A DNA stretch of 26,641 nucleotides, taken from positions 1 through 26,641 of the IMG/VR virus record IMGVR_UViG_3300025652_000444; one strand, 5' to 3'. The notes below the pieces were generated by a model, which ran no database searches, had not been told where the DNA came from, and saw only the letters and a program-made list of their open reading frames with translations. Within the stretch, counting starts at the first letter, position 1, and each line of letters starts with the position of its first letter. This DNA comes from a virus. A program made the translations under genes and the position numbers. Of the stretch, positions 6,762-26,091 are shown piece by piece.

Positions 6762-7670
6762 ATGGCTATTTCAAGAGCGCAACTCCTTAAGGAGCTACTA
6801 CCGGGTCTAAACGCCCTATTTGGTCTCGAATACGCTAAGTATGGTGACGAGGCTGCTGCAATCTTCGATACCGAGTCTTCTGATCGGTCTTTCGAGGAAG
6901 AAACTAAGTTGTCTGGTTTCAGTGCCGCACCTGTTAAAGGTGAAGGTTCTGCAATCGAGTATGACAATGCGCAAGAAGCGTGGACTGCTCGTTACACTCA
7001 CGAGACCGTCGCAATGGGCTTCTCGCTCACCGAAGAAGCAATCGAAGATAACCTCTACGATTCACTCTCTTCACGTTATACAAAGGCACTTGCCCGCGCT
7101 ATGGCGTACACTAAGCAAACCAAAGGTGCTGCTATTCTTAACAACGCCTTTGCTGCCGGTACTACGTACGGTGATGGACAGCCACTATGTTCAACTGCTC
7201 ACCCTCTCGTATCTGGCGGTGTAAACTCAAACACTCCTGCTGTTGCGGCTGACCTTAACGAGGCTTCACTAGAAGCTGCTGTTATTCAGATCGCTGGCTG
7301 GACTGATGAGCGCGGTCTGCTTATTGCAGCTAAACCCACTAAGCTTGTTATCCCACCTGCGCTGCAATTCGTTGCTACTCGCCTGTTGGATACCACTCTT
7401 CGTCCGGGTACAGCGGATAACGACATCAATGCCATGAACAACAACGGTACAATTCCGGGTGGTTATACAGTTAACAACTACCTAACTGATACCAATGGTT
7501 GGTTCTTGATGACGGATATCCCCAACGGCCTGAAGCACTTCGTCCGCTCTCCTATGAGCACTAGCATGGACGCAGACTTCGACACAGGCAACAGCCGTTA
7601 TAAGGCTCGTGAGCGATACAGCTTCGGCGTATCTGACCCACTGGGCATCTTCGGTTCACCGGGCGCTTAA
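6762..7670 (+). CDS. Major capsid protein, Mu gpT-like family
   Basis: Main shell protein with the HK97 fold expected for this family. It has 302 residues, close to Mu-type gpT proteins. Family-like features are the N-terminal ALFGLEYAKYGDEAAAIFDT and the middle stretch YTHETVAMGFSLTEEAIEDN. A long helix then carries KALARAMAYTKQTKGAAILN, with LCSTAHPLVSG after it. A late segment, KPTKLVIPPALQF, is followed by a C-terminal part with YKARERYSFGVSDPLGIFG. No N-terminal delta domain or protease site is evident, consistent with the separate scaffold-like gene upstream. It is the last gene before two terminators, so its transcript probably ends here. Pairing a gpT-type shell with a P22-like portal and short-tail genes is mosaic. 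Confidence 0.9.
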   Translation: MAISRAQLLKELLPGLNALFGLEYAKYGDEAAAIFDTESSDRSFEEETKLSGFSAAPVKGEGSAIEYDNAQEAWTARYTHETVAMGFSLTEEAIEDNLYDSLSSRYTKALARAMAYTKQTKGAAILNNAFAAGTTYGDGQPLCSTAHPLVSGGVNSNTPAVAADLNEASLEAAVIQIAGWTDERGLLIAAKPTKLVIPPALQFVATRLLDTTLRPGTADNDINAMNNNGTIPGGYTVNNYLTDTNGWFLMTDIPNGLKHFVRSPMSTSMDADFDTGNSRYKARERYSFGVSDPLGIFGSPGA

Positions 7671-7691
7671 TAAGCAAACGGTGTTAGGATT

Positions 7692-7717
7692 GGGGGCTTC
7701 GGCCCCCTTTCTTTTGT
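7692..7717 (+). terminator. Rho-independent terminator after the capsid gene
   Basis: Perfect 6-bp stem GGGGGC (7692-7697) / GCCCCC (7702-7707) closing the very stable TTCG tetraloop, followed by TTTCTTTT. It begins 21 bases after the capsid stop. A textbook intrinsic terminator on the + strand. Confidence 0.9.
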
Positions 7718-7763
7718 CTTGAGTTTAGTGTTAGTTTTAAATTGCAGTACCCCTTGAGAAGTT

Positions 7764-7791
7764 GGCCCGTCCCCACAGACGGGTCTTTTTT
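7764..7791 (+). terminator. Second Rho-independent terminator in tandem
   Basis: Stem CCCGTC (7766-7771) / GACGGG (7778-7783) with a 6-base loop, extendable by a G-T and a G-C pair, followed directly by six T residues (7786-7791). It lies about 60 bases after the first terminator, giving a back-up stop for transcripts that read through. Confidence 0.82.
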
Positions 7792-7793
7792 AT

Positions 7794-7824
7794 TTGTGTA
7801 CTAGCTAAATAAGTGGTATATACT
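7794..7824 (+). promoter_or_regulatory. Possible sigma70-type promoter after the tandem terminators
   Basis: TTGTGT at 7794-7799 could be a -35 box. After 17 bases comes TATATA (7817-7822), preceded by TGG, which makes an extended -10 (TGnTATATA). TATACT at 7819-7824 is an alternative -10 with a 19-base spacer. The expected start is near 7830, immediately before the structured RNA. The boxes are imperfect and no experiment supports them. The location, right after two terminators and before a new gene block, is the main argument. Confidence 0.45.
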
Positions 7825-7829
7825 AAGAG

Positions 7830-7912
7830 AAATCCGGGGCCATCCGGTATATCTGACAGTCCCGGCTGACGACATGCAGGCAGATATACCTAAAACTAAC
7901 TCGCATGTGAGG
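7830..7912 (+). ncRNA. Structured RNA or leader with two possible pseudoknots
   Basis: A perfect 10-bp inverted repeat pairs GGTATATCTG (7846-7855) with CAGATATACC (7881-7890). Inside its 25-base loop, CAG/CTG (7857-7859 with 7866-7868) closes a small hairpin whose loop contains CCCGG (7861-7865). That can pair with CCGGG upstream (7834-7838). The same large loop holds ACATGC (7872-7877), which can pair with GCATGT (7903-7908), immediately before the GAGGA ribosome site (7909-7913) of the next gene. The fold could therefore control translation of the gene at 7921, act as a separate RNA, or stabilise a transcript end. I recall a published motif named Mu-gpT-DE for RNAs downstream of Mu gpT capsid genes; this may be a member, but I could not compare it. 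No peptide of note is encoded here. Confidence 0.68.
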
Positions 7913-7920
7913 AACTACCG

Positions 7921-8397
7921 ATGGGTACTACAACTTTCTCTGGCCCAGTTAAAGCGGGCACTATCTCCAATACTACCGGAACAACTCTCGGTAAGGACGT
8001 AAAGAACACGGGCCAAGTAACTATGGCTCAGACGTTCTCAACTGGCACTGCGCTTGCGTCTGGAGCTTCTGCTGCGAACGCTACTACTGTAGTTATTCCA
8101 GCCAACTCTCAAATTATTGATATTGTACTAGATTGCCCCACAGCTATAGGTAACGCAACAGCGGTACTGAGTATTGGCGATACTGTTGGCGGTAACGCTA
8201 CGTTTATTAACGCTTATAGCATTACAGTTGCTTCTGGTGCGGGTCGAAAGTACCCCACTACGCAAGCTGGTGGTGCCCTTGCTTGGGCAGATACTGGAAC
8301 TGCGGATAAAAAACTGACTTGGACTACCACCGGAGCTACTGACGCTGGTGAAATCAGAGCGACTGTTCTGTACCAACAAAACATTAATCTCGCCTAA
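7921..8397 (+). CDS. Probable virion structural protein, unknown role
   Basis: A 158-residue protein dominated by Ala, Thr, Gly, Asn and Val, opening MGTTTFSGPVKAGTI and lacking cysteine-based or enzymatic motifs other than one Cys. Beta-rich composition is typical of decoration proteins, head fibres and tail parts. I recognise the N-terminal pattern (GTTxFSGPVxxG) from marine phages directly after the capsid gene, where it is annotated only as structural or hypothetical. It is the first gene after the terminator/promoter/structured-RNA island, with GAGGA at 7909-7913, so its expression may be set apart from the head operon. A head fibre or decoration role is plausible but not shown. Confidence 0.7.
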   Translation: MGTTTFSGPVKAGTISNTTGTTLGKDVKNTGQVTMAQTFSTGTALASGASAANATTVVIPANSQIIDIVLDCPTAIGNATAVLSIGDTVGGNATFINAYSITVASGAGRKYPTTQAGGALAWADTGTADKKLTWTTTGATDAGEIRATVLYQQNINLA

Positions 8398-24687: not shown

Positions 24688-26091
24688 ATGCTAGATGGAG
24701 GACTCAGTTGGCTTACTTCTAAAGTTCTTGTCCCTAGCGTGCTTTCTGGTATAGGAAGTTTGTTTGGTGGAGGTGGCAAAAGCATTGAAGCTACTCCAAT
24801 GACTCCAGAAGAAAAAGAGTTATTTAACGCCGCCCAAAAAACAGATAACGCTATACGCTTGGCAACACAAGATGAAGACGGGTTTGTTTCCGGTACAGAG
24901 GGCACTGCGCCAGAGGCTTACCTTTTAGATGCTTATGAAGCTGTTAACGCACTGCCAGATTCAGACTTAGAATTTTTTGGTGATACCAAAGATAAGCTTT
25001 TGGACAGTTTGGTGGGTGCGGGTGTTGACTCCTCTACGTCTTCACAGGGAGTTAAAGGTAAATGGTATGACCCCGAAACTGGAGAAGTATTGCCTGACTT
25101 TAATCCCAATACCGGTGAGGGTATGGGCACACTATTTCCGACTTTTTACCCAGACTCTGTAGCCGATCCGGGTGGTGGTGGGGGCGGTGGAGACACAGCA
25201 GCGAGTAGTGAAGCGGGTAGTACGGCTAGTAGCTCAACGGATAGTGCGCCAGAAAACGCAGTAGACTTAGATACTGAACATCCGTGGCTCTATGAAGGTA
25301 ATGGGGTGTTGCGTAATGTCTTTACTGGTGAAGTTCTAACAAACGAAAGTGGCACTGAAAATCTTGTTGTAGGTGGTAGGTACAGTACGGGCGAGCCAAA
25401 CCCTGCGACAGAAAGAACCGACACCGTGCCTACGGGCACTTTAACTTTACCTACTATTTTGCCCTTACCGGATTTTGGTGGCACTAGCACTACTAGCTCC
25501 CCATCCGACATTTCGTCCTTACCGGATTTTGATAGCACTAGCACTACTGGCTCAACGGGTACAGGTACAACGGGTACAGGAACTACAGGTACAGGAACTA
25601 CAGGTACAGGAACTACAGGTACAGGTACAACGGGTACAGGAACTACAGGTACAGGAACTACAGGTACAGGTACGACAAACACCGGAGGCACGGGTGGCGG
25701 GTTAAGCACTGGCACGGGCACAGGTGATGGTGCAGGTACAGGATCAGGTACGGGCACAGGTGACGGAGCGGGCGACGGGGATGGTACTGGAGATGGTACT
25801 GGAGACGGTACAGGCGATGGTGCAGAAAGAGGCCAAGAGCTTGCAAATATTGTAGGCGGTGGCGGTAGCGGTAGCGGCGGTATGCGTACTGTTAAGACAG
25901 AAAAAGCAGGGTTGGCTGACATAACTAACACATACGACCCAAGTCTTTCCCTTGCCGAAAACATGGCCCTTATGCTGGGTACAAAAACGCAAGAGGAAGA
26001 CGCAGTGGATAGCGCACTTATGTACGGTGGTGGTATAGTACAACCCGCTGATATAAATGCTGAAATTTTAAGAATTTTAGGGAGTCGCTAG
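24688..26091 (+). CDS. Low-complexity virion protein with tandem repeats, possible internal protein
   Basis: A 467-residue protein. The short hydrophobic N-terminus (LSWLTSKVLVPSVLSGIGSL) could be a membrane-active helix, as in some ejection proteins. A folded-looking acidic part follows to about 220. Two direct repeats around LPDF (54-base period, 25463 and 25517) lead into eight TGTGT-type units (25555-25674) and then four GDGT units (25777-25824). The C-terminus is more normal (LADITNTYDPSLSLAENMAL, MLGTKTQEEDAVDSALMYGG). No enzymatic motif. AGGAG at 24677-24681 gives a strong start. Position after the nozzle and fibre genes fits an internal/ejection or tail protein; not confirmed. Confidence 0.68.
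   Translation: MLDGGLSWLTSKVLVPSVLSGIGSLFGGGGKSIEATPMTPEEKELFNAAQKTDNAIRLATQDEDGFVSGTEGTAPEAYLLDAYEAVNALPDSDLEFFGDTKDKLLDSLVGAGVDSSTSSQGVKGKWYDPETGEVLPDFNPNTGEGMGTLFPTFYPDSVADPGGGGGGGDTAASSEAGSTASSSTDSAPENAVDLDTEHPWLYEGNGVLRNVFTGEVLTNESGTENLVVGGRYSTGEPNPATERTDTVPTGTLTLPTILPLPDFGGTSTTSSPSDISSLPDFDSTSTTGSTGTGTTGTGTTGTGTTGTGTTGTGTTGTGTTGTGTTGTGTTNTGGTGGGLSTGTGTGDGAGTGSGTGTGDGAGDGDGTGDGTGDGTGDGAERGQELANIVGGGGSGSGGMRTVKTEKAGLADITNTYDPSLSLAENMALMLGTKTQEEDAVDSALMYGGGIVQPADINAEILRILGSR
25463..25552 (+). repeat. Direct repeat, 54-base period
   Basis: CCTTACCGGATTTT occurs at 25463-25476 and 25517-25530, and similarity continues for about 36 bases (GGTGGCACTAGCACTACT and GATAGCACTAGCACTACT). It encodes two LPDFxxTSTTxS segments just before the TGTGT array. 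Confidence 0.8.
25555..25674 (+). repeat. Eight 15-base tandem units encoding TGTGT
   Basis: Eight in-frame units close to ACAGGTACAGGAACT. Units 1-4 and 5-8 match in order, so a higher 60-base period is present. Codon use inside the units is more uniform than in neighbouring sequence, pointing to recent slippage or unequal crossing-over. Confidence 0.92.
25777..25824 (+). repeat. Four 12-base units encoding GDGT/GDGA
   Basis: Units GGGGATGGTACT, GGAGATGGTACT, GGAGACGGTACA and GGCGATGGTGCA, in frame, just after the TGTGT array and a GTG-rich linker. Asp/Gly repeats of this kind could bind calcium, though the spacing does not match RTX nonapeptides. Confidence 0.85.

Follow-up and report, generated by a model that had tools for sequence, protein, structure and literature searches.

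The DNA analysed here, called the window, is the whole stretch of 26,641 nucleotides of the viral record IMGVR_UViG_3300025652_000444. The locus of interest lies between the gene of a Mu gpT-type major capsid protein and the gene of a capsid cement protein, which holds the phage head together. The RNA found there consists of two helices, called P1 and P3, and two pseudoknots, called PK1 and PK2. The features are given below, together with the evidence for each of them.

6762–7670, + strand: major capsid protein gene, Phage_capsid_4 / Mu-like gpT (PF25209 7e-15, PF10124 9e-9, phrog_371 major head protein)
7692–7716, + strand: intrinsic terminator 1, GGGGGCTTCGGCCCCC and a T tract (terminator scan)
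7764–7795, + strand: intrinsic terminator 2, GGCCCGTC..GACGGGTC and a T tract (terminator scan)
7819–7824, + strand: −10-like TATACT (sequence); predicted transcript start at ca 7831, 3 nt before PK1
7834–7838, + strand: PK1 5' strand, CCGGG (sequence, complement test in relatives, alignment A1)
7846–7855, + strand: P1 5' strand, GGUAUAUCUG (sequence, covariation)
7857–7859, + strand: P3 5' strand, CAG, a new helix (3/3 pairs vary on both sides in 44 sequences)
7861–7865, + strand: PK1 3' strand, CCCGG, within the P3 loop (sequence, complement test in relatives)
7866–7868, + strand: P3 3' strand, CUG (covariation)
7872–7877, + strand: PK2 5' strand, ACAUGC, between P3 and P1 (sequence, complement test, covariation)
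7881–7890, + strand: P1 3' strand, CAGAUAUACC (sequence, covariation)
7903–7908, + strand: PK2 3' strand, GCAUGU, flush with the Shine-Dalgarno sequence (sequence, complement test, position)
7909–7913, + strand: Shine-Dalgarno sequence GAGGA, 7 nt 5' of the AUG, starting directly after PK2 (sequence)
7921–8397, + strand: capsid cement (decoration) protein gene, 158 aa (profile, predicted fold, annotated homolog)

The family profile of the 7921–8397 product matches the cement protein of cyanophage Pam1 (PDB 7eel_H, E 0.002) and the cement protein 7dn2 (0.005). Its AlphaFold model (pLDDT 72) has 7eel_H as the best match (E 6e-4), followed by other phage cement and capsid chains, and a homolog in phage DSL-LC04 is annotated as 'cement protein'. 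Profile and predicted fold thus indicate that the product is a capsid cement protein. No family for it was found in Pfam or PHROGs, and a weak match of distant homologs to phrog_20969, 'Rz-like spanin', was discarded, since this PHROG was judged to be misnamed given the structural matches. The cement-type proteins (window 7921–8397; loci L175–L294) have the N-terminal M..TTF.GPV in common, while their remainder is unrelated between phages. From this pattern, they would consist of a conserved capsid anchor joined to exchangeable decoration domains.

The preliminary description of this DNA had placed a structured RNA right after a Mu gpT-type capsid gene. The location is correct, but the RNA is not an element of that gene. 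Two terminators intervene, the −10 element precedes PK1, and the RNA moves along with the cement gene when the spacing changes; it is therefore the 5' leader of the cement mRNA, and a 3'-UTR role for the capsid gene was rejected. Among the matches listed, the capsid gene lies upstream of the motif in 100 of the 101 relatives with enough upstream sequence, and the RNA remains beside the cement gene even where 600–1000 nt, room for another gene, part the two genes. In the window, the RNA is followed by the cement gene without an intervening terminator. Sub-threshold Rfam matches at 7689–7799 were found merely to reflect the terminators.

Cement genes commonly have their own promoter at this position. 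The −10 box ends 7–9 nt 5' of PK1 in 95 of ca 129 leaders, and from this we infer that the transcript begins within a few nucleotides of PK1. Several relatives have TTGACA or TTGACC 16–17 nt upstream of the −10 box. The −35 element of the window itself is weak, and a consensus promoter scan gave nothing above threshold at its leader.

We now turn to the RNA itself. Its elements follow the order PK1 5' strand, P1, a single A, P3 (whose loop is the PK1 3' strand), AC, N, PK2 5' strand, NRR, P1', PK2 3' strand, Shine-Dalgarno sequence and AUG. The 10-bp P1 and the PK1 and PK2 pairings are present in the sequence exactly as the preliminary description had them, and PK2 indeed touches the ribosome site of the gene at 7921, whereas P3 had been overlooked. 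It had further been argued that so many complements are hard to explain by chance. For the single sequence this does not hold. A stem of at least 7 bp together with both pseudoknot complements occurs at one site in the whole window, but 20 shuffled windows gave 7 such co-occurrences (overlapping registers counted separately), and the nested minimum free energy fold is ordinary (z −0.2), although such folding is blind to pseudoknots and thus uninformative for this RNA. By itself, the window sequence is not convincingly above chance, and it is a lead only.

Conservation of the fold in related phages

When the capsid protein and the 7921–8397 product were used as queries against IMG/VR, hundreds of loci were obtained, and the same architecture was found there, with different bases, upstream of the orthologous gene. 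A strict script sorted 243 unique leaders into 121 of the double-pseudoknot type (both pseudoknots with exact 5-bp pairing), 10 more with one pseudoknot, 68 of the Mu-gpT-DE type discussed below, and 44 'other', a group in which inspection by eye shows many double-pseudoknot RNAs. Since contig collections hold near-duplicates, the tests were run on non-redundant sets.

The pseudoknots were examined with a complement test that is independent of any alignment, the register being set by the core, and from which six leaders misparsed by the descriptor were excluded. For the PK1 loop 5-mer, 97.6% of 41 non-redundant leaders offer an exact complement in the 5' flank; for the PK2 5-mer, 95.1% offer one in the 3' flank. 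With shuffled flanks, the values drop to 2.6% and 3.5%, respectively. The number of distinct 5-mers is 12 for PK1 and 16 for PK2.

In alignment A1 (MAFFT, 29 sequences, 4 helices), pairing amounts to 87.3% and both sides have changed in 20 of the 23 pairs. The covariation score is 0.62, to be compared with 0.23 for shuffled alignments (reached in 0 of 500) and at most 0.16 when the helices are slid. PK1 is weaker here, at 67.6% paired, with its 5' strand out of register, which is why the register-free test was used for this pseudoknot. For P1 and P3 in 44 sequences, pairing amounts to 98.1%, the score is 1.06 versus 0.26, and all 11 pairs have changed on both sides. P3 occurs among the relatives as CAG/CUG, CUG/CAG, CCG/CGG, CGG/CCG, UAG/CUA, UUG/CAA and CCC/GGG. 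The RNA is also present in the cultured pelagiphages HTVC023P and HTVC027P; in the former (L170), the P1, PK1 and PK2 sequences all differ from those of the window, with the pairing kept.

The paired changes that the preliminary description had called for are thus pervasive, its proposal of a compact RNA with two pseudoknots is fully supported, and the complements in the relatives do exceed chance. We accept the structure as conserved because these complements and the covariation far exceed the shuffles, and the comparison moves the fold from plausible to near-certain. There is hardly any doubt that the double-pseudoknot leader is a genuine and so far uncatalogued regulatory RNA. This structured RNA has very strong support and a wide distribution, in hundreds of environmental phages from lake and ocean, and Rfam 15 does not contain it.

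A context-free DNA pattern for the core gave at least 120 stretches, and among the matches listed, the product of the next gene starts with M..TTF.GPV or close to it in all 114 with enough sequence. It is important to point out that the AC, GAC and NRR elements served as bonuses or regular-expression terms in the parsing, so that the conservation of the core is overstated. The pattern for a divergent sub-class, called B, likewise gave at least 120 stretches; among the matches listed, PK1 and PK2 partners are present in 119 of 120, P1 has 8–11 pairs in 119 of 120, and 113 of 114 precede such a gene under a looser test. The covariance model R1 detects class B weakly (E 0.03), and the proposed unity of this class with the other leaders rests on the common architecture and core, not on the model score. 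The RNA is single copy per locus and, among the matches listed in both pattern scans, is not seen apart from the cement gene.

Mu-gpT-DE and its relation to the leader

The catalogued motif Mu-gpT-DE (RF03012) had been brought up as a possible identity of the RNA. This led to the right locus and to a sister RNA, but the window is not a member of the family: RF03012 gives no match there, neither at gathering (49 bits) nor at E≤10, nor does it match the double-pseudoknot loci tested (including L056, L104, L043, L127, L097, L105, L169, L170 and L164). It does match the orthologous leader elsewhere, namely in L144 (64.8 bits), L035 (69.9), L526 (61.9) and the cultured roseophages CRP-901 and CRP-902 (72.3 each), the leaders of this class scoring 62–72 bits. 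In the two roseophages (L162, L163; 2951–3003), the match covers the Shine-Dalgarno sequence and AUG of the cement gene; Rfam files the family as an sRNA.

The two RNAs have much in common. Both lie between a gpT-type capsid gene and a cement gene, and both have an outer P1, a single A, a P3 starting with C-G, an AC linker, RGA before P1' and a contact with the ribosome site. In the window, this core is represented by A7856, the C7857–G7868 pair and A7869–C7870, with AGG instead of RGA before P1'; most relatives have AGA or CGA. However, Mu-gpT-DE is 53 nt long and its P3 is a closed hairpin without PK1. The 3' strand of its P1, CCUG/CAGG, serves as the Shine-Dalgarno sequence, and the start codon takes part in its second pairing. 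The window RNA, which is ca 80 nt long, instead has the 10-bp P1 with CAGAUAUACC as P1', the loop-to-5'-end pseudoknot PK1, and PK2, which pairs with 7903–7908 just before the Shine-Dalgarno sequence at 7909–7913.

The start-codon pairing is not part of the Rfam model, which stops at the AUG. In RF03012-type leaders, the linker between P3 and P1' and the start codon occur as GCCA/AUGGC in 17 cases and as CCC(A)/AUGGG in 38, with no mismatched combination (Fisher 1.5e-14, kinship ignored), that is, in 55 of 57 leaders when only these two classes are counted. On the cement tree, linker and codon each change 8 times, always together, with only 3 independent switches on well supported branches. 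Rfam and ZWD have been reported to disagree on the structure of Mu-gpT-DE (PMC7657543), and part of the start-codon pairing could already be drawn in the ZWD version.

Given the common P1-A-P3-AC...RGA core at an orthologous position, it seems that a single superfamily of cement-gene leaders comprises both the double-pseudoknot leader and Mu-gpT-DE. The orphan RF03012 is thereby given a place in the genome, base pairs that its model lacks and a function open to test, namely the control of cement-gene translation.

Proposed function and alternative explanations

PK2 is 5–7 bp long. In 34 of 39 non-redundant leaders, it either overlaps the Shine-Dalgarno sequence or is no more than 1 nt away from it, and the distance between this sequence and the AUG is the usual 6–9 nt in 38 of 39. 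This leads us to propose, with a probability of about 0.68, that the RNA is a translational operator that works in cis and is OFF when folded, and it is probably a switch that restrains the production of the capsid cement protein. In this mechanism, a promoter directly upstream would start the transcript about where PK1 begins, and the leader folds into P1, P3 and the two pseudoknots, as the covariation shows. When fully folded, PK2 would cover or abut the Shine-Dalgarno sequence, such that PK2 and 30S binding exclude or hinder each other; that this state is OFF is suggested by the position. A putative factor stabilising or melting the fold would then set the amount of cement protein relative to capsid protein, or the timing. 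Where PK2 is flush with the Shine-Dalgarno sequence but does not overlap it, as in the window, initiation might be possible on the folded RNA.

The most likely trigger would be a protein of the phage virion that binds to the invariant junction; a small molecule is the less probable choice. Leaders of different sub-classes are found with cement proteins that are 82–91% identical to that of the window, and other cement proteins agree in the N-terminus alone. This makes the cement protein a less likely reader, unless just the shared core is read, and a partner that does not vary, for instance the gpT-type capsid protein, would be a better fit. The Mu-gpT-DE leaders appear to act alike, as a shorter version with the Shine-Dalgarno sequence hidden in P1 and the start codon in the second pairing. 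As two layouts arrive at the same logic, translational control is favoured over a role in stability alone.

Such a role is nevertheless the nearest alternative, although an unlikely one. The knot would shield a late mRNA, present in large amounts, from attack by RNase E and RppH at its 5' end and insulate it from the RNA upstream, and PK2 would be close to the Shine-Dalgarno sequence simply because the leader is compact. This would agree with a predicted transcript start within ca 3 nt of PK1, with the position after terminators, with cement genes having their own promoter, and with a product that is an abundant structural protein. However, a plain hairpin would be enough for the purpose, and it would leave unexplained why PK2 is placed as it is in the 34 leaders and why the sister RNA pairs with its start codon. 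We consider a metabolite or ion riboswitch, in which the junction is the ligand pocket and PK2 the expression platform, to be still less probable. In the SAM-II and preQ1-II riboswitches, a loop-to-downstream pseudoknot covers or abuts the Shine-Dalgarno sequence and the conserved core is small. The window RNA is similar, with a compact pseudoknotted fold, a Shine-Dalgarno sequence sequestered by PK2, and a junction surrounded by a small number of unpaired bases that are conserved (A, AC/GC, NRR), while the helices are free to vary. It differs in topology (5'-a b a' c b' c'-3'), has no sequence match to them, and controls only a virion structural gene, in hosts as diverse as Pelagibacter, Roseobacter and those of freshwater phages; no Rfam riboswitch matches at gathering in the window or in 35 related loci.

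An independent trans-acting small RNA, which is how Rfam files RF03012 (type Gene; sRNA), could account for the own promoter as well as for that label. The idea is very improbable given that no terminator separates the RNA from the cement gene, that the Shine-Dalgarno sequence, and in the sister RNA the AUG, belong to the structure, and that the RNA always accompanies the gene among the matches listed. We also considered a hammerhead-type self-cleaving ribozyme, as 7866–7872 reads CUGACGA, an exact CUGANGA box. This was rejected as having next to no likelihood, since relatives have CAGACGA, CGGACGA or CUGACUG, there is neither a GAAA partner nor a cleavage context, and no Rfam ribozyme matches even at E≤10.

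The operator proposed here has counterparts in the T4 gp32 pseudoknot, T4 RegA and the RNA-phage coat operators, in which a phage gene likewise has a structured leader at its ribosome site. As with these, a phage protein could plausibly exert feedback in the present case, but the architecture is unrelated and the leader is spread over hundreds of diverse environmental phages. More tentatively, and with considerable doubt, both leaders could be versions of a single, ancient RNA switch of phages, which would respond to a component of the virion, for example free major capsid protein, and meter cement translation in head assembly. If true, this switch would operate in some of the most abundant ocean and lake phages; the group of HTVC023P and HTVC027P has been reported to outnumber every other known group of pelagiphages, and RNA-seq data from cells infected with HTVC027P are available (PMC12753301).

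Other leaders and repeats

Four leaders (L098, L100, L122, L461) have, before the Shine-Dalgarno sequence of the same gene, a reduced GAC-hairpin-GAC element (UUG-AC-UGC-GUAA-GCA-GAC..CAAGGAG) without pseudoknots, which may be the minimal form of the leader family. In Synechococcus phage MinM2 (L166, 1528–1640), whose capsid gene is the same as that of Planktothrix phage Pag-Yong1, the gap after the gpT capsid gene is G+C-rich and gives no match to the model; it has a hairpin whose loop contains GACTGACGG, possibly another leader variant. Finally, the open reading frame at 24688–26091 of the window has ca 7–8 copies of tandem TGTGTT residues, a low-complexity repeat in a gene of the virion region.
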